11,051 nt of DNA from Flavobacteriales bacterium. Lineage in GTDB: Bacteria; Bacteroidota; Bacteroidia; Flavobacteriales; Flavobacteriaceae. Under the pieces are notes generated by a model. That model was given only the letters and a program-made list of their open reading frames with translations. It did no database searches and was not told the DNA's origin. Position 1 is the first letter of the stretch; each line of letters begins with the position of its first letter. The position numbers and the translations under genes are program-made. Positions 552 through 11,051 of the stretch are shown here, one piece after another. The DNA lies in contig JAMONI010000201.1 in NCBI GenBank assembly GCA_027065935.1, positions 1 to 11,051 of the forward strand, given 5' to 3'.

Positions 552-3212
552 CTAATCTTTAATAAATTTGGCCGAGTATATCGATTTATCCCGGTGAAGT
601 CTGACCCAATAAATGCCTTTGGCCCATTCATAAACCGGAATGACAATGTAGCCTTCGGAATCACCCGCACGGCCTTCATATTCGGATTGCCAGTAGCGTT
701 TTCCGTCCATTCCGTATATGGTCAATTTGATTTTTTGCGAAGCGGATAGCGGAAATTTCACAGATAAATAATCACGTGCCGGATTGGGATATAATACTAT
801 TCCTTTCCAATTATCTTGAGGAACATCCGTAGTATATTGCATGCAGAATTGAAGTTCCCATTCTTTGAAAATCATAGGATTGTTTTCAAATCTTTGATAA
901 ACCTCCAAAATCCATTTTCCGTGAGCATCTTTATTATTGTACGATGCCAAATGTCCTCTGAAGGGTTTTACCACCGTATCGGTCAGATAGGCACAAAGCA
1001 ATGTAATACCATCGTCGTCGAAAGTCAGGTCCATATTGGTATGCGCGCCGCAATGTCGGTCCCACAACAAGACGGAAGAGCCGTCGGGACGTTTCAGGCG
1101 AACGGTAACTTTGTTCGTCGTAATCGAATCCAATTTAACGCGAACATTAACGTCGGAAACCAAGAAATAATCCGGGACTTCGATTGTATCGCGCACCGTC
1201 ATCATACCTTGCATAAGTGCGTTTACGTCGGAGCGGTAACTTAACCCGCAGTTTTCCAATTCATCCCCCACTTTGATTCTTGCTTGCGTGATATCGAAAA
1301 AGTAATTATCCGACGCCTTCACCATAATCCTCGCCCTTGGCGTTTCATAGGGAGGCACCGTAATGGTGTAGGATCCGGTGTTGGGTACAGATGAGGCCAA
1401 CACATAAGGAAAATGAAGGCCGTCATCGGTGGAATACAATATATCGACGAATTGGCAGTTGACCCTCGGGTTGGTCGTATTGGCCACATCCCAGGTGATG
1501 GTATGCGTTTCGCCGGGCAACCAATGATATTCGCCCGAAATATGCGAGGTAATCCGGAACGGGCCGGCCGTCGTGTCGATGTGCAAACGAACGGAGTCAA
1601 TAGCCGTAAGCCCGGTCGGATAGTGATGGTCGCGTACCGTAACCTTAAAGTTTAAATCCCTCTCCACGTCGGGCAATACTTCCCAAGCGGGTGTGTAATT
1701 ACCTTGACGCAAACTGTCGAGATGCGGAAAATACCTTTCGGGCGTATCCTTATCGAGATAAACCCTGAACAAAGGGCCTTCCGTCCAATCGGGTTGCGGA
1801 GGCCTGTCGTGTTCAATACCCCAGGTAGGCGGTGCCGTGTCGGTTTGTTCCCAGCTGTAGGTTAAAAAGTCGCCGTCGGGGTCCGAGGCCGTGGCGCGGA
1901 GCATAAACGGTGTGTTGCGCGGGATGAACTTATCTTCACCCGCATCCACAACGGGCGAACGATTAACCGGGTGGGTTTCCACGACGGCACAAGGGGCCGT
2001 ATTTCTCGTTCGTATCATTGCGGGCAGGTTGACCGAATGAAAAATTTCGTCGGTTTCTTTTTGAATAAAGGGATCACAGGTTCCCGAATAGCTCATGATG
2101 GTGGTTCCGCTTCCGGGTTCCACCGAATAAGGATATCTTCGGTTACCTCCACACAGGTTGGCAAACGTATGATGCGCACCTAAGGTATGGCCTAATTCGT
2201 GGGCCACCACTTTTTCAATATAACGTTCGGAAGCGGGATGACGCGCCGCATTGCTTGTGTAAACCTGACAGGGAATTAATAAGGTTGCCTCACCTCCCAA
2301 CCGGGCCACATCCCATCGTTGGGCGATATCGAAATTGGCCGTTCCTATGGAATCCCGTATCATGTCATAAGGAGAAATACCGAGATTTTCAGGGTCGCGC
2401 AAACTGTCGAGGATGATAATTTTTTCGTTTTGATCACTTATGTAAAACCGTACAGAAAGATCCCGCTCGAAAATGCTGTTAATCCATTCCATGCTAAACA
2501 GAATCACACCCATTACGGTTGCTTTCTTTACCGAGTCGGGTGCGGTGGCCGGGATGCCGTATTGTGATAATACATAATCCGTATATCTGTAAGTAGCGAG
2601 AATTGCCGTTCGGAAGGTATATAGATTACTTACCGATTGCGGACCGTATGCATTTGGGGCGTTTGAATTATTTATGTCGTCGAGGATTTCGCCGGATATT
2701 CGGGATGTTTCCGTTGGCGCTTCACAAGCGAAAGGTTCGGCTTCGAAAGTTTGATCTTCGGGGCGATACAGGATATGTTTCTCTTCGTCGTAAGGTTTCA
2801 GTATATATTTTCCCCGTCCGGGAATCAAAAGCAGGCCGGTTAATTTGTTTTGCGTATAGGTTAAAAAGAGTTTTTTTCCGGTTTTACTCGTTCCCCTAAA
2901 GGAAGCGATTCGGTATTTTTCTATCCATTTTTTCCGGCTCAAGGGCGACATTTCCATAGCAAATTCCTCAAAACGCCCTTCATCCGGTACCGGAAAACGC
3001 AATAGAAAGTCAGCCTTTTTTCCTGCTAAAGCTTCTTTTATTCCTCCCGAGTCACGGATGTCGATGTGCCAAAACGAATACTTTTCGGGCATTGGCTCCG
3101 TAAAAAACATTTTCCCTTTAACGGGTGTGCCGGCATTAATGCGTTGAAAAACCTGTGCTTGTAGCGGAACGAAAAAATACAGAAACAGGACAAAAAGTAA
3201 ATCTTTTTTCAT
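552..3212 (-). CDS. T9SS-secreted metzincin metalloprotease (reprolysin-like) with PKD-like, P and sorting domains
   Basis: An 886-residue secreted zinc endopeptidase. Residues 1-20 form a Sec signal peptide ending at QAQ. A propeptide-like region runs to about 190, and the catalytic domain starts near YTFRTAILATYRYTDY (about 198-213). The zinc site HELGHTLGAHH at 338-348 gives ligands His338, His342 and His348 and catalytic Glu339. The metzincin Met-turn is TIMSYSG (371-377, Met373). Next come a PKD/Ig-like domain (about 419-546, with DAGEDKFIPRNTPFMLRATASDPDGD-type motifs), a second beta-sandwich (about 551-648), a proprotein-convertase P-like domain (about 654-792, with HGKWILEVYQ and a final WELQFC) and a type IX secretion sorting domain (about 806-886, opening with LYPNPARDYLSV). 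It should be exported and released or anchored at the cell surface; its substrate is unknown. All catalytic residues are present. A separate promoter-like site and a terminator frame it as its own unit, unrelated in function to nos as far as can be seen. Confidence 0.9.
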   Translation of the reverse strand: MKKDLLFVLFLYFFVPLQAQVFQRINAGTPVKGKMFFTEPMPEKYSFWHIDIRDSGGIKEALAGKKADFLLRFPVPDEGRFEEFAMEMSPLSRKKWIEKYRIASFRGTSKTGKKLFLTYTQNKLTGLLLIPGRGKYILKPYDEEKHILYRPEDQTFEAEPFACEAPTETSRISGEILDDINNSNAPNAYGPQSVSNLYTFRTAILATYRYTDYVLSQYGIPATAPDSVKKATVMGVILFSMEWINSIFERDLSVRFYISDQNEKIIILDSLRDPENLGISPYDMIRDSIGTANFDIAQRWDVARLGGEATLLIPCQVYTSNAARHPASERYIEKVVAHELGHTLGAHHTFANLCGGNRRYPYSVEPGSGTTIMSYSGTCDPFIQKETDEIFHSVNLPAMIRTRNTAPCAVVETHPVNRSPVVDAGEDKFIPRNTPFMLRATASDPDGDFLTYSWEQTDTAPPTWGIEHDRPPQPDWTEGPLFRVYLDKDTPERYFPHLDSLRQGNYTPAWEVLPDVERDLNFKVTVRDHHYPTGLTAIDSVRLHIDTTAGPFRITSHISGEYHWLPGETHTITWDVANTTNPRVNCQFVDILYSTDDGLHFPYVLASSVPNTGSYTITVPPYETPRARIMVKASDNYFFDITQARIKVGDELENCGLSYRSDVNALMQGMMTVRDTIEVPDYFLVSDVNVRVKLDSITTNKVTVRLKRPDGSSVLLWDRHCGAHTNMDLTFDDDGITLLCAYLTDTVVKPFRGHLASYNNKDAHGKWILEVYQRFENNPMIFKEWELQFCMQYTTDVPQDNWKGIVLYPNPARDYLSVKFPLSASQKIKLTIYGMDGKRYWQSEYEGRAGDSEGYIVIPVYEWAKGIYWVRLHRDKSIYSAKFIKD

Positions 3213-3323: not shown

Positions 3324-4232
3324 TTATTGTTTGTTTTCTTTCATTTCCTGAAGGATTCCGGTAGCCAAACCGTTTTGATCGATGAATTTTCGTATATTCC
3401 GGGGGATGTTTTTAGCGTCTTTGAAGTTGGTTTGTTCCAGCCGGGCGCCGAAGAAATTAACTCCCGTAAGGTCGGCACCGGAAAAATCGGCGCCTTCCAA
3501 ATGTGAGCCTTTCATGTTGGCGTAATGTAATTGAGCGCCTTTAAATGAAGCTTCTTGAAATTGCGCTCCGGTCATATCGGCTTTATAAAAGTCGCAACTA
3601 TCCAGAACGGATTTGTTCATTACGGTGCGGATAAGTCTTGCTTTGATAAATCTTGATCCGGTGAAATCGGATCCTGTCAGGTCGGCGTCTTTGAGCAGGG
3701 CGCCCGAAAAGTCACATCCGGTAAATTTGGAATACGGGGCTTCCATGCCGAACATATCGGCGCCTTTGAAGGAGGAACCGCTGTAGTCGGCAAATTCGGA
3801 AAAGACGTGAAAGAGTTTGGCTTGGTCGAAGCGGGCGTTTTTCAAAACGGCGTAGTCGAAACGGGTCCACCGGATATCCACCACTCTGAAATCGCTTCCG
3901 CTGAAATCACTTCCTTCACATTCGGCCGAGCGGAAGGTAGCCCCTCTGAAATCGGCATTTCTGGCCCGGATATCCGTCCAGAATACATTATCCAGTGTAT
4001 CGAACCTGAAATCGTCGTTGTCCTGCGGCCACGCACGGAAACCTTTGTGCCGGGTAACGCCGGAAGATAAACGGGCAATGGAATCTATTTCGTCTTGCGA
4101 TAAAAATTGATATAATTCTTTAATGCGCAACGTGTCTTTCCACGATACATCTTCTTTTGGTGTGGAATCTTTGTTCGTGCAGGCAGTCAATGACATACAA
4201 ATCGATACGGAGATAATAGCATAAGTTTTCAT
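3324..4232 (-). CDS. Pentapeptide-repeat lipoprotein downstream of nosY
   Basis: A 302-residue protein when started at the ATG at 4230-4232. The same frame is open further upstream inside nosY, but this start gives a clean lipoprotein signal (MKTYAIISVSICMSLTAC) with lipobox LTAC and lipidated Cys18. A linker and short helices occupy about 19-70. Residues about 76-272 are dense pentapeptide repeats of A(D/N)(L/F)xx type, for example ADFSGADLTGVNF near 248-260, predicting a long right-handed quadrilateral beta-helix. A charged helical tail, IRKFIDQNGLATGILQEMKENKQ-like, follows. It should sit in the periplasm or on the inner face of the outer membrane. Its start is 13 bases after the nosY stop on the same strand, so co-transcription with the nos genes is likely. 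No function is known to me. Scaffolding or partner binding, perhaps alongside the other beta-helix protein NosD, is inference. It might also be an unrelated passenger gene. Confidence 0.85.
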   Translation of the reverse strand: MKTYAIISVSICMSLTACTNKDSTPKEDVSWKDTLRIKELYQFLSQDEIDSIARLSSGVTRHKGFRAWPQDNDDFRFDTLDNVFWTDIRARNADFRGATFRSAECEGSDFSGSDFRVVDIRWTRFDYAVLKNARFDQAKLFHVFSEFADYSGSSFKGADMFGMEAPYSKFTGCDFSGALLKDADLTGSDFTGSRFIKARLIRTVMNKSVLDSCDFYKADMTGAQFQEASFKGAQLHYANMKGSHLEGADFSGADLTGVNFFGARLEQTNFKDAKNIPRNIRKFIDQNGLATGILQEMKENKQ

Positions 4233-4245
4233 GGCAAAAAAAACG

Positions 4246-5088
4246 TTAGACCACATCGTGATTTTTAAAATACCGGTGTCCCAGCCAAGCGAAAATACCT
4301 CCGGTGACGAGCGGATACAACACGGCATAGGCTATAAAAGCACTTCGACTCATGGTGTCCAGAATGTAGTATGACACGGGCCCCATTACGGTGAGTTTGG
4401 GGTCGAACAAAATTAAACTTCCGGTGCGGAACACTTGAAGCGGATTTAGCAATGCCGTCCAAATCACCGGCTCGGGGCTGATGCGCCACTTAAGGAGCAA
4501 ACCGATGAGCAATATGTCCATAAAAGCCACCAAAAACAGCCAAATGATAAATGCCGTGCTCATGGCCATTTCTTGGGATTTGGTCACGGACGACAAATAC
4601 ATACTTAGGCCCAAGAAGAAGAACACCATTACGGCCAGCAAAACACTGTAGAGAACGAACAAATCCCACGGCACATCCAATCCTTTTACCAATCCCCACA
4701 AGGCCGCTCCCGTGAAAGCCAAAAATACGGGAACATAAATCACGAAAAAGCGTCCTAAAAATTTTGCCCAATAAAAACTCGGGAATGAAATGGGCAAAGA
4801 AAGCAAATATTCAAGGACGCCGTTTTCCCGGTCGCCCACTACCGAGCGAACGGTGGAAATCAAAACGTAAACGGGCAAAATAACCATGCTCACCTGTATG
4901 AAAGTAATCATCAACCTGCTCAACCCCACAAAACCTACCACTTGTGATTCGGTAATACCGGTGGCGAACATCACGGCTACAAAGACACCGAACAAGGCAC
5001 TGTATATCCAGAAAGTTTTGGACCGAACATTGAGGTTGATTTCGGTTCTTAAAACTTGCAGTAAAGTATTTCCCGTCTTTATTTTCAT
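4246..5088 (-). CDS. nosY: NosY, ABC-2 type permease of the nitrous oxide reductase maturation transporter
   Basis: A 280-residue integral membrane protein with six clear hydrophobic segments (about 25-43, 59-80, 113-134, 143-166, 175-199 and 250-270). It carries the ABC-2 permease signature GDRENGVLEYLLSLPIS (85-101), which couples to the ATPase, and the NosY-type motif NPLQVFR (215-221) before the last segment. In the family, NosY forms the membrane part of the NosDFY complex that, with NosL, supplies sulfur and copper for assembly of the CuZ cluster of NosZ. It lies 49 bases after nosL and 13 bases before the pentapeptide lipoprotein gene. The N-terminal cytoplasmic stretch LRTEINLNVRSKTFWIY is typical of this permease family. 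Length and topology are normal. Confidence 0.93.
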   Translation of the reverse strand: MKIKTGNTLLQVLRTEINLNVRSKTFWIYSALFGVFVAVMFATGITESQVVGFVGLSRLMITFIQVSMVILPVYVLISTVRSVVGDRENGVLEYLLSLPISFPSFYWAKFLGRFFVIYVPVFLAFTGAALWGLVKGLDVPWDLFVLYSVLLAVMVFFFLGLSMYLSSVTKSQEMAMSTAFIIWLFLVAFMDILLIGLLLKWRISPEPVIWTALLNPLQVFRTGSLILFDPKLTVMGPVSYYILDTMSRSAFIAYAVLYPLVTGGIFAWLGHRYFKNHDVV

Positions 5089-5137: not shown

Positions 5138-5674
5138 TTATTTTCCGCCGCCGCATTTACCTCCGCCGCATTTTCCCGGCGCACATTTCATGGAGCCGTC
5201 ACCTCCGCTGACGGACATTTTTTTCTTTTTGATAAATTCGGCTCTTTTGGTTTTGCCTTCGGCAATGCGTTTCAAAACGGCTTTGAAATCGTATCCGGCT
5301 TGTTCTGATTTTGACTTTAAAGCGCCGTAGCCGTATCCCATCGGGGTTTCGTCACCGAACCGGTACCAGGCTTTTTCGGCATCAATCCAAGCTCCGGTTT
5401 CGGCATCCTGAATCCAAATTTTGTATTTCGTTCCTTTCCACGTATTAAAGTCTTCGTCGCGGATATCTTCGGCCAAACATCCCAAATCGTCGTACCAACG
5501 AACTTGGCCTCTTTCGTTGATGGCTTGCACGTTATAAGGCAAATCGGTCAAACCCATTTTGCACACATGACATACATCGCGGTCGAAATTAGGTTTTTTG
5601 GGTGAGAAATCCGTTTCTTTCCGGCAGGATATGACCAAAAACAAAACTGCGAGTGCTACAATGAACTTTTTCAT
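5138..5674 (-). CDS. nosL: NosL copper chaperone lipoprotein with Cys-rich C-terminal tail
   Basis: A 178-residue lipoprotein. The signal MKKFIVALAVLFLVISC ends in lipobox VISC with lipidated Cys17. The NosL metal-binding motif is CHVCKM (Cys35, Cys38, Met40), followed by VRWYDDLGCLAED with Cys66 and a stretch around KIWIQDAETGAWIDAEKAWY that matches the NosL fold. NosL delivers Cu(I) to the NosDFY machinery for CuZ assembly. The unusual part is the end: after a Lys-rich helix (about 131-153) comes a Gly/Lys tail with Cys164, Cys169 and Cys174 at five-residue spacing (KCAPGKCGGGKCGGGK). I do not recall this as a usual part of NosL; it looks like an added soft-metal site. The gene sits between nosF (19-base gap) and nosY, whereas the Wolinella order is F-Y-L. 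Confidence 0.93.
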   Translation of the reverse strand: MKKFIVALAVLFLVISCRKETDFSPKKPNFDRDVCHVCKMGLTDLPYNVQAINERGQVRWYDDLGCLAEDIRDEDFNTWKGTKYKIWIQDAETGAWIDAEKAWYRFGDETPMGYGYGALKSKSEQAGYDFKAVLKRIAEGKTKRAEFIKKKKMSVSGGDGSMKCAPGKCGGGKCGGGK

Positions 5675-5693: not shown

Positions 5694-6377
5694 TTAAAAA
5701 TCGTCGTCGGATGTATGATAATCGTCGTCAAAAGCCTTGTCCACCACTATTTTTCCCAAATCCATTTCCACCAAACGATTGACCAAATGGGCGATTTCCT
5801 TGACGCGGTGACTACTTAAAATTAATAACGTGTCGGACGGGAGTTCTTCCAAATACCTTACAAGAACCTTGCGGGCCGCCGGATCCAAATTGGCCGTAGG
5901 TTCGTCCATCAACAGGATTTTCGGACGGCGCGACAGGGCCAAGGCTACCAATAATTTTTGTTTCATTCCGCCCGAAAGTTTAAGAAAAGGTTTGTTCCAA
6001 TGTTTTTTAACATCCAAATTCAAATCGTCGGTGATACGATAGAAGGTATCTCTGTCACTTTCGGTAATGACCGAAAAAAAATGCATGATTTCTTTCACCG
6101 TCATAGCCAAGGGTGGCGGCATTTGCGGTACGAATCCTACTTGTTGCAATACTTCTTCTCTTTGTGTGCGCGGATTTTTATTCAAGACGGATAAAAAACC
6201 TTCATAGGTGTATAGTCCGAGGATACATCTGATGAGCGTGGTTTTACCGGCGCCGTTCTGCCCGATTAAAGCGATACGGTCACCGGCGTGGAACCGTATG
6301 CTCAGGTTATCGATGACGTTAACTTTATTAAAAGTTTTGGTCAGGCCTTCTACTCGGATTAATGTTTGACGTTCCAT
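5694..6377 (-). CDS. nosF: NosF, ATPase of the nitrous oxide reductase maturation ABC transporter
   Basis: A 227-residue ABC ATPase with every catalytic motif: Walker A GQNGAGKTT (39-47), Q-loop Gln85 in FVPQMPPPL, signature LSGGMKQK (134-141), Walker B ILLMDEP (154-160), D-loop around ANLDPA (162-167) and switch His190. It is the cytoplasmic motor of NosDFY, whose ATP hydrolysis supports CuZ assembly on NosZ in the periplasm. The protein is shorter than many ABC ATPases of this group (often near 300 residues) because the C-terminal extension is reduced to an acidic tail (DDDYHTSDDDF). Its ATG directly follows the nosH stop TAG with no base between them, indicating translational coupling. The NPFLKLSGGMKQK-type signature region and the operon position support NosF over a generic ATPase. 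Confidence 0.94.
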   Translation of the reverse strand: MERQTLIRVEGLTKTFNKVNVIDNLSIRFHAGDRIALIGQNGAGKTTLIRCILGLYTYEGFLSVLNKNPRTQREEVLQQVGFVPQMPPPLAMTVKEIMHFFSVITESDRDTFYRITDDLNLDVKKHWNKPFLKLSGGMKQKLLVALALSRRPKILLMDEPTANLDPAARKVLVRYLEELPSDTLLILSSHRVKEIAHLVNRLVEMDLGKIVVDKAFDDDYHTSDDDF

Positions 6378-7382
6378 CTACTTGTTTTTGGTTTGACTTC
6401 CCAACATCTTGGTGGCGATTTGATAGCCCCAGCGGTTGGTTTTCCAATCTTTCAAACCGAAAGATAAGGCATTTCCGTAACATACGTCAATACATAAGCC
6501 GCATTTGGTGCAATCTCCTCCGGTAAAGTGTACTTCTTTGGTGGCGGCCCCTTTTTTGACAAACCAAAGTTCGTGCGGAACCAAACAAACGTCTTGACAG
6601 TCGCGGCAATGTCCGCATTTATCTAATTCGAACTTCACGCTCATGGGTGATAAGTCACCTACAAAACTGTATGTAACACCGATCGGACATACGTAACGGC
6701 ACCAAAAGCGTTTGATTCCGAAAATTTCGTAGGCCAACAGTAACACGACCCAAATCAACGCCAATCCGGGGCCGTAAATCATGGCGCGGGACAGAATGCC
6801 TACGGGATTGAGGTTTTCAAACACCAATTGTTGGGTTAAAAAGGCGACGATGAGAAAGCCGGTCCAAAATACGTATTTTACCGTAATATCATAAGTTTTT
6901 TCCCTGATTTTACGCTTCTTTAAAATATAATCGTGAATGCGTTCGCCCATTTCGGCAAAAAAGTGATAAGGGCATACCCAAGAACAAAAAGCCCGTCCGC
7001 CGAGTAGCCAATAGAAGGTGAGTATGACGAAAAATCCTATCCAAAAATTAGTGGTCAGATGGGAAATAAAGCCGGTTTTGGAGCCGATAATCAGTTCTTG
7101 CGCCGAGTTAAACGGATCCATCAGATAAATGCCCAGGAGTCTCGAACCGCTGAGTGAACCTTCCAGAACACCCCAGCTCAAGTGGAAGGATGCCACAAAA
7201 AGCAAGTTGATAAAAATCAAAAAGGCCCAGCGAATATTTCGCCATTTGTGTTTATTGGGGTTTTGTTCTTGCCACTGCTTAAAGCTTATTCCCAGCTTTG
7301 CGTTGGGTAGTTCGTCTTTCTTTTTGGCGGGTAAGGGATTGAGTTTTTTGTCACCGGTCAAAAAATCGAATATAAATGACAT
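6378..7382 (-). CDS. nosH: NosH, membrane 4Fe-4S quinol dehydrogenase subunit (NapH family)
   Basis: A 334-residue membrane iron-sulfur protein. Hydrophobic segments lie at about 51-70, 112-128, 170-187 and 202-220. Two conserved CxxxCP motifs sit at membrane edges: CSWVCP (Cys133, Cys137) and CRYVCP (Cys228, Cys232). Two ferredoxin-type [4Fe-4S] motifs follow in the cytoplasmic C-terminal part: Cys256/259/262/266 and Cys291/294/297/301, each CxxCxxCxxxC. In the NapGH/NosGH model this protein oxidises menaquinol and passes electrons to NosG. It lies 18 bases after nosG and abuts nosF. Its place between nosG and nosF matches nosH of the clade II locus. A NapH function for nitrate reduction is unlikely because no nap genes are near. 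The long N-terminal cytoplasmic stretch (about 50 residues) is mostly charged. Confidence 0.9.
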   Translation of the reverse strand: MSFIFDFLTGDKKLNPLPAKKKDELPNAKLGISFKQWQEQNPNKHKWRNIRWAFLIFINLLFVASFHLSWGVLEGSLSGSRLLGIYLMDPFNSAQELIIGSKTGFISHLTTNFWIGFFVILTFYWLLGGRAFCSWVCPYHFFAEMGERIHDYILKKRKIREKTYDITVKYVFWTGFLIVAFLTQQLVFENLNPVGILSRAMIYGPGLALIWVVLLLAYEIFGIKRFWCRYVCPIGVTYSFVGDLSPMSVKFELDKCGHCRDCQDVCLVPHELWFVKKGAATKEVHFTGGDCTKCGLCIDVCYGNALSFGLKDWKTNRWGYQIATKMLGSQTKNK

Positions 7383-7400: not shown

Positions 7401-8213
7401 TTATACCAACTCTTCTTCGGGTTCAATAACGATGGCTTTGGGTTGGGTAGGGCAGAGCATTTGACAAACCCCGCACCCCACACATCCTTCTTTGACTTCC
7501 GGCAAATATTTACCGTTGCCGGTTTCTTTAAGTTCAATGGCTTCATTGCCCAACGGGCAATATACCACACACAGATCGCACACTTCGCGCTTTACCATCG
7601 TTTCGGCGATATCAATACGCTCTTTGCTTCCGGGCGGTCGCAGTAAGGCGTGATGTTGTCCCAAAGGGCCTTCGTATCCTTTACCGTGATAGGCCAAACA
7701 CATTTCTTTGTCCGTGATTTTGGCGATGCCCATGTCGGCCACCTTGCGCATGGCCAGTATTTGAAAACCGAAAGCATTGACGTTGGCGGGAATGTTTCCG
7801 TTGAACTTTTCCCTTAGTTCTTCAAAAGCCTTGTCGCCCGCCGATTTGAATATTTTGAAGTTGATGGCGCCCGTGGGGCAGGTTTCGGCACATTGAATGG
7901 CATCACACGAGAAATCGCAAGCTTGTATATTGGCGTCGATATAAGGTGTTCCGTAAGACAAATTACTGCTCCAATCGGCCAGTTTAATGGCGTTAACCGG
8001 ACAAATCTGTACACACAATCCGCATTTGATGCAGGCATAAAGAAAATCGTCCTCTTTGATGGAACCGGGCGGACGCACTATCCCGGTTTTTTTTACACTG
8101 CTTTTGTCACGCAGGTAATAAGCGGCCGAACCCACCACGGCCAAAGACACTACCGCCGTTGCCGAGGCTTTGAGAAATTGCCGCCTGCTTATTTTTTTTG
8201 TTCCGTCTGCCAT
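7401..8213 (-). CDS. nosG: NosG, Tat-exported protein with four 4Fe-4S clusters (NapG family)
   Basis: A 270-residue periplasmic ferredoxin-like protein. The N-terminus has a twin-arginine signal, SRRQFLK at 9-15, then a hydrophobic stretch (about 18-33) that may stay as an anchor. Four Cys clusters follow: Cys61/64/67/71-Pro, Cys99/103/108/112-Pro, Cys212/215/219-Pro with a neighbouring ligand to be assigned, and Cys244/247/250/254-Pro. This is the NapG/NosG pattern. Its role is to carry electrons from the NosH membrane subunit across the periplasmic face toward the NosZ electron-entry site. The ATG overlaps the nosD stop by one base (TAATG), so translation is probably coupled. In Wolinella two cytochrome genes (nosC1, nosC2) follow nosG; here nosH follows directly after 18 bases. 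Confidence 0.9.
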   Translation of the reverse strand: MADGTKKISRRQFLKASATAVVSLAVVGSAAYYLRDKSSVKKTGIVRPPGSIKEDDFLYACIKCGLCVQICPVNAIKLADWSSNLSYGTPYIDANIQACDFSCDAIQCAETCPTGAINFKIFKSAGDKAFEELREKFNGNIPANVNAFGFQILAMRKVADMGIAKITDKEMCLAYHGKGYEGPLGQHHALLRPPGSKERIDIAETMVKREVCDLCVVYCPLGNEAIELKETGNGKYLPEVKEGCVGCGVCQMLCPTQPKAIVIEPEEELV

Positions 8214-9526
8214 TATGTTTTGTTTTTTTGTTTTTTAAATTCTTTCAGGTTAAATACGGGTTTTTTGTCCTTCAAGATAAATCGCGGTTTGGAAAAAGGG
8301 GCTAATTTTTCCAAATAATCGATTACCGATAAAATCGGGCTTCCGTAAAAAAATTTCACATCGGGATTAAATTTCCATAATTTGGCGTGATATTCGTAAA
8401 TTCTGTAGGGGAAGTCGCCTATATTGTCGCCGTCTTTATCATATCCGGCATAATCGTCCCAGTAGTTTTCAATCCATTTGTTCCGGTTGGCACCGCCGTT
8501 TCCGGTTACCGTCACGTGAACCAAATTGTCATGAAACATGTTGTTTCGGAATAAATTACCTTCCTGGTCCTTTAAAAATTCAATGCCTATGTTACAATAG
8601 GCGATTTCATTGCCCGAGATGGTGTTGGTTTTCCAAGGAACAAAGGGCGACACGTCAATGTAAATACCTCTTGAGGAGTAAATGAATTTGTTGTCCAAAA
8701 TTTGATTGGAAGAAGTTTCTTTCATGCCCAAACACATGCCCGTAACGCCTTGACTGTTTTCGATGAGGTTGTTGTTCATTATGGTTTTTTCGCTGTACAT
8801 CAAAAAAACGCCTACGGACGAGTCGGTGAAATGGTTGTGTGAAATTTGGTTGTTGTGCGAATACATGAAGTGGATGCTGTAACGGTTGCCTTTTCCGAAA
8901 TTTCCTACGAATTTGTTTTCCTGCGAATACCACACCACCATATCCCTTACGTCGTACCAATAATTTTCCTGAACCGTGATGTTTTTGGAATACCACAAGC
9001 GGATGGCATCACCTTTCAGGCCTTTGGATTTTCGGCTTATGGATGTTATTTCATTGTGCAGGATTTCTCCGTTGCTGCTCCAAAACACATCGATGCCGAA
9101 TAAGGTTTCTTCAATCCGGTTATTGATAATTCTAAAATTGTCGGCTTTGTTGATTTTAATGGCACAATCGATTTTGTCGGGCGAATCGTTAGAGTCTTTC
9201 AGATGCAGGTTTTGAACGGTTACGCTGTCGGCTTCGATGTATAAAACCGAGCGTATGTGACGGCCGGTTACGGTCACTTTGCCTTGGCCGTCGATGACGA
9301 CGCGCGGCGTGCGTATATATGCCGGGCCGTAATACAAGCCGGGCTCCAATATTAAGGTATCTCCCGGCTTGAGGCCGTCCAGCAAAGGTTGAAGGTTACG
9401 GGGATTTTCTTTGGGCCCCGTCCAACCTTCAACCGGACTTGACAAACCCGGCTTGAAGGAAGCGTCGATTTGCGCTTCGGCCAAGCCGGTTATGACGAAC
9501 AGCAAGAAAAAAATCCGTGTTTTCAA
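8213..9526 (-). CDS. nosD: NosD, periplasmic beta-helix maturation factor of nitrous oxide reductase
   Basis: A 437-residue secreted right-handed parallel beta-helix protein. Residues 1-19 form a Sec signal ending AEAQ. The NosD opening NLQPLLDGLKPGDTLILEPG (44-63) is followed by about ten helix coils of the carbohydrate-binding/sugar-hydrolase type (about 70-350, with many N-rich turns), and the conserved end ENYWDDYAGYDKDGDNIGDFPY begins at 353. NosD binds NosFY from the periplasmic side and hands metal and sulfur to apo-NosZ. The start is TTG at 9526-9524: there is no upstream in-frame ATG before a stop codon at 9560-9562, and the first downstream Met would remove the signal peptide. The start overlaps the nosB TGA stop (TTGA), so translation is probably coupled to nosB. 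Met-rich coils (HFMYSH, VFLMYSE, GMCLGMK near 219-269) are potential Cu(I)-contact sites; that is inference. Confidence 0.95.
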   Translation of the reverse strand: MKTRIFFLLFVITGLAEAQIDASFKPGLSSPVEGWTGPKENPRNLQPLLDGLKPGDTLILEPGLYYGPAYIRTPRVVIDGQGKVTVTGRHIRSVLYIEADSVTVQNLHLKDSNDSPDKIDCAIKINKADNFRIINNRIEETLFGIDVFWSSNGEILHNEITSISRKSKGLKGDAIRLWYSKNITVQENYWYDVRDMVVWYSQENKFVGNFGKGNRYSIHFMYSHNNQISHNHFTDSSVGVFLMYSEKTIMNNNLIENSQGVTGMCLGMKETSSNQILDNKFIYSSRGIYIDVSPFVPWKTNTISGNEIAYCNIGIEFLKDQEGNLFRNNMFHDNLVHVTVTGNGGANRNKWIENYWDDYAGYDKDGDNIGDFPYRIYEYHAKLWKFNPDVKFFYGSPILSVIDYLEKLAPFSKPRFILKDKKPVFNLKEFKKQKNKT

Positions 9527-10284
9527 TCTTCGAGGGATTTGATGTATTTGGATTTGAAACTAACGGCCAATAATACCAGGATAAAGCCTAGAATTCCCAC
9601 ATAAAAACCCGTGTCGGGGAATGAGAAGGTGGTAAACTGCGCTACTTTTCCTTCACCGAACACCGTGGGCATAAAGGGTTTGATACCGCTAAAAGCACCG
9701 CCACCGTGCAAGCCCAAATTGTGGCCGTACCAATACAAGTAATACACGTAGATGATTAAGAAGTAAAACGGAGCCAAGCCGGCCAAAATGGCGGCCCAAG
9801 CCAATTTTTTACGAGGCACGGCTATAAATAAAAGCATTAAAAGACCGAAAACTACGAAAAACCAGTGGGCGTTGCGCATGATTTTGTCCAAAATCTTCAA
9901 AGCCGTAGGTATTTCCTCGGGAGGAATCTTGTCGCCGGCATAAACGGGATAAGGCACGTGTTCACCGAATTCATTAACATCGTTAACCCCCTGCACGATG
10001 GGGAACATACCGATGAAATGGTTGATTTTGTTCATTTCAATCAGGCAGTCGGCACCGGCGTCCATAGCCAATTCCTCGCGTTCGCGCACGCCTTCGCATC
10101 CGTTATACACTCCGTTAAATTTAAATTCGATACGAATACCTTTCGGATACATGGCCTTGGGGTATTGGTGACTTTCCAATGCCACCCACCACATAGGCAA
10201 AAAATACAACGAAATGATGGCCCCCAGAGCCAAAACACCGAATAAAACGTAAAGAAGCTTAAAAATTTTGTTTCCCTGTTTCAT
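9523..10284 (-). CDS. nosB: NosB-like membrane protein of the clade II nos locus
   Basis: A 253-residue membrane protein with hydrophobic segments at about 8-30, 139-156, 162-184 and 225-243, and a large loop (about 31-137) after the first. The loop holds HQYPKAMYPKGIRIEF and then NKINHFIGMFPI (85-96). These match what I recall of NosB, the uncharacterised membrane protein encoded between nosZ and nosD in Wolinella-type loci (pattern near YP-GL-I and N-NHYIGM). The same position here, directly upstream of nosD with a 4-base overlap, supports the call. The C-terminal part HNLGLHGGG...IKPFMPTVFGEG also looks conserved. Between the two loop motifs is a stretch with Cys63 and Cys80 and many acidic residues that may be specific to this lineage. 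The biochemical role of NosB is unknown; proposals include a part in electron transfer or NosZ maturation. Confidence 0.75.
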   Translation of the reverse strand: MKQGNKIFKLLYVLFGVLALGAIISLYFLPMWWVALESHQYPKAMYPKGIRIEFKFNGVYNGCEGVREREELAMDAGADCLIEMNKINHFIGMFPIVQGVNDVNEFGEHVPYPVYAGDKIPPEEIPTALKILDKIMRNAHWFFVVFGLLMLLFIAVPRKKLAWAAILAGLAPFYFLIIYVYYLYWYGHNLGLHGGGAFSGIKPFMPTVFGEGKVAQFTTFSFPDTGFYVGILGFILVLLAVSFKSKYIKSLED

Positions 10285-10407: not shown

Positions 10408-11051
10408 TTAGCTCTTGGCTGCCTTTTCTTGATCCATTTGCGCCGATTTGGCTTTCATGTATTCGATGATTTTATCCACATCCTCCGGATCCACGTTTTG
10501 GTCGGGCATTCGGAGTTTGTAGTATTTTATCATTGCTTGAATGTCCGCATCGTTAAACTTGGCTTCGGGATCCAGTATCCACTCTCTCAACCATTCGTCG
10601 CTTCGGCGCTTGTGAACGTTGTAAAGGTCGGGTCCGTTGAAGGGTTCGCCGAACTTATGACAAGCGTTACATCCGTAGTTCAAGAATTCGATTTCACCCG
10701 GAAGCATGTTTTTCAACTCGATGGACGAAGGTTGGAAAGCTTGCACTTTTTTATCCCAGTTTACACGTTCGGAGTATGCCAATACGCGTTCGTTTTCGGC
10801 CGCTTGGTCGAAGTTCACCGTTAGCAATCCGATTTGAACCCTGTCCGAAGGATCATACTGTTTGTCCAACATAATGGGATAAACTCCCGATTTTTCGGCT
10901 TTGAACTTCAAGGTTGCGGTTTCACCGGGTTTGTAAGGATACATTTTGTCGTATGAAGCGATTTCATACACATACGTATCATACAGGCCTTGGTCCAAGT
11001 TGGTCAAATGAATAATTACGGTTTGCCCTTGTTTTACGGTGATATCGGAAG
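10408..11051 (-). CDS. nosZ: NosZ-type protein, C-terminal part: cupredoxin domain lacking CuA ligands fused to cytochrome c (partial)
   Basis: The frame is open to the right edge, so the N-terminus is missing and about 214 residues are visible. They begin SDITVKQGQTVIIHLTNLDQ, as in the NosZ C-terminal cupredoxin. The domain ends in GVYPIMLDKQY...IGLLTV, collinear and gapless with the NosZ CuA loop consensus (YCTxFCSALHxEM). However, the CuA ligands are replaced: the His of THGF by Tyr, the two Cys by Leu and Tyr, the loop His by Asp and the Met by Gln. After a linker comes a class I cytochrome c domain: haem site CNACH at 10657-10671 and likely axial Met in LRMPDQ (10507-10509), then a helix and a Lys/Ala tail. 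Clade II NosZ proteins of the Wolinella type also end in a haem c domain. It is followed by a terminator and nosB. It may instead be a separate NosZ-derived cupredoxin-cytochrome protein, or have a second, normal CuA domain upstream. Confidence 0.72.
   Translation of the reverse strand, partial: SDITVKQGQTVIIHLTNLDQGLYDTYVYEIASYDKMYPYKPGETATLKFKAEKSGVYPIMLDKQYDPSDRVQIGLLTVNFDQAAENERVLAYSERVNWDKKVQAFQPSSIELKNMLPGEIEFLNYGCNACHKFGEPFNGPDLYNVHKRRSDEWLREWILDPEAKFNDADIQAMIKYYKLRMPDQNVDPEDVDKIIEYMKAKSAQMDQEKAAKS

Follow-up and report, generated by a model that had tools for sequence, protein, structure and literature searches.

Nitrous oxide (N2O) reductase, NosZ, is the enzyme that destroys this greenhouse gas, and in the clade II (Sec-type) NosZ of Rhodocyclaceae, Myxococcota and others (L079-L113) both of its metal sites, CuA and CuZ, reside in one gene (37/37). 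In the system reported here they are instead divided between two chains with one site each. We describe this arrangement from the window, an 11,051-nucleotide stretch that is the complete contig C201 of a Flavobacteriales genome (G000), and from related loci; the window ends within a NosZ gene that has lost CuA, and the pair to which this gene belongs is, we infer, most probably a heterodimeric, single-site N2O reductase, as regards both association and activity.

Further described systems come close to this one. The cNosZ of Wolinella succinogenes and its relatives carries haem c at the C-terminus (PMC8301774). DPANN archaea of oxygen-deficient zones have CuA-only NosZ-like proteins, a likeness to one half of the present pair; as reported in PMC10936187, these are 56-617 amino acids long, reach 20-58 bits with the authors' NosZ profile and are placed in the tree between Cox2 and NosZ, and two metagenome-assembled genomes have, immediately upstream, a separate protein in which five histidines are conserved. 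Compared with the short DPANN proteins, both chains here are full-length NosZ folds within a nos cluster, and the window's protein does not show the combination of short length, CuA present and CuZ absent. Among the papers listed by our literature searches there was no CuA-only plus CuZ-only NosZ gene pair of the present kind.

A NosZ chain without CuA and the paralogue upstream

The terminal reading frame and its parts are as follows.

10408..11051, minus strand: NosZ fragment, with its reading frame (10408-11049) running open into the contig end
10816..10974, minus strand: separately listed segment within this frame
10411..10716, minus strand: C-terminal cytochrome c domain of the fragment (Pfam Cytochrom_C, 1.3e-7; motif read directly)

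In profile searches the frame matches Sec-type NosZ in the C-terminal cupredoxin, and also a cytochrome c domain (the curated cut-off of the NosZ profile TIGR04246 is 625 bits), and the fragment is identical to the 810-residue protein P0235 from residue 598 onward. The chain has the NosZ fold, a cupredoxin joined to a seven-bladed propeller that carries all seven histidines of CuZ, and shares with cNosZ the C-terminal cytochrome c domain; the binuclear CuA with Cys2His2Met, which cNosZ holds intact within the same chain, is absent. The side-chain ligands His, Cys, Cys, His and Met are replaced by Tyr, Leu, Tyr, Asp and Gln, bearing out the first-pass annotation, which had reported every CuA ligand lost. 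In keeping with its further suggestion that a Cu-S (CuZ) centre is still built, the CuZ ligands are retained and maturation machinery adjoins.

Directly upstream, in 44/44 loci counted with both genes, lies a NosZ paralogue that bears CuA and lacks CuZ. In it the ligands of CuA are kept, as is the Phe621 gate; in canonical NosZ, a homodimer, these face the CuZ of the other subunit. For these reasons it is most likely that the sister subunit provides CuA in trans and that the site has not been dispensed with. A path that bypasses CuA altogether, with electrons going straight from the chain's haem c to CuZ, as initially proposed, is not supported as the best reading, given the paralogue upstream; of the other proposal, a NosZ paralogue or accessory protein, the former stands, and the protein looks like the catalytic half rather than an accessory.

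Ordinary Bacteroidota NosZ (e.g. L114-L143) share their phylum with the pair but, unlike it, occur as one gene per genome in nearly all matches. They form a clade apart from the pair with 100/100 support in the tree, so the pair is apparently not derived from them.

Two canonical NosZ genes per locus, approximately 4.5 and 5.5 kb apart, are found in L087 and L103 (Azonexus fungiphilus and a Rhodocyclaceae MAG); these are partly near-identical and their ligands are complete. The public record of L034 is labelled 'Chlorobiota bacterium', though its contig is apparently identical to one (102,993 b, same gene positions) in G007, a genome placed in the window's genus, and the label looks wrong.

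The nos cluster and its surroundings

Maturation genes stand alongside NosZ in the window and in relatives. All those in the window lie on the minus strand.

9523..10284, minus: presumed nosB, named by position
8213..9526, minus: nosD, maturation protein (TIGR04247, 364.9 bits, cut-off 300)
7401..8213, minus: nosG, NapG-like ferredoxin-type protein with a Tat-like signal (134 bits, below the NapG cut-off of 269)
6378..7382, minus: nosH, NapH-family membrane ferredoxin-type protein (TIGR02163, 236 bits, cut-off 213)
5694..6377, minus: nosF, ABC transporter ATPase
5138..5674, minus: nosL-like copper chaperone with a Cys-rich tail (Pfam NosL, 23.3 bits, just below the 24-bit cut-off)
4246..5088, minus: nosY, ABC-2 permease

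Going by position, we take nosF and nosY to act in copper-site maturation. The C-terminal Cys/Gly-rich tail of the NosL-like protein, MKCAPGKCGGGKCGGGK, may be an extra copper-binding tail. Next after nosY comes a pentapeptide-repeat protein (3324-4328, minus), which closes the same cluster in many relatives (41-64% identity, best stretch), and beyond the cluster (552-3212, minus) an M12B-like metalloprotease with a P-domain and a type IX secretion tail.

Proposed division of the enzyme between two chains

Heteromers of complementary degenerate paralogues exist, for example ABC transporters in which one of the ATP sites is dead. The evolutionary logic would be alike here, with the difference that what is split is a single electron-transfer path, into its two halves. 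Two clade II NosZ copies would have lost complementary metal sites, leaving the electron-entry copper site (CuA) on one chain and the catalytic copper-sulphur site (CuZ), with the fused haem donor, on the other; CuA would be provided in trans, each dimer would have one active site, and several uncultured Bacteroidota lineages would have no N2O reductase other than this pair. We hold this whole scheme, including the obligate nature of the heterodimer, to be likely.

Each chain retains both propeller and cupredoxin domains and could for that reason form its own homodimer, a reading that also accounts for the complementary ligands and the gene adjacency; we nevertheless consider it improbable. 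A change of substrate or function, with N2O reduction lost from the pair, seems to us very improbable indeed. Under the heterodimeric reading, only the mixed pair of both proteins is probably functional, and in some uncultured bacteria N2O reductase appears to be divided between two neighbouring genes, one CuA-only and the other Cu-S-only.
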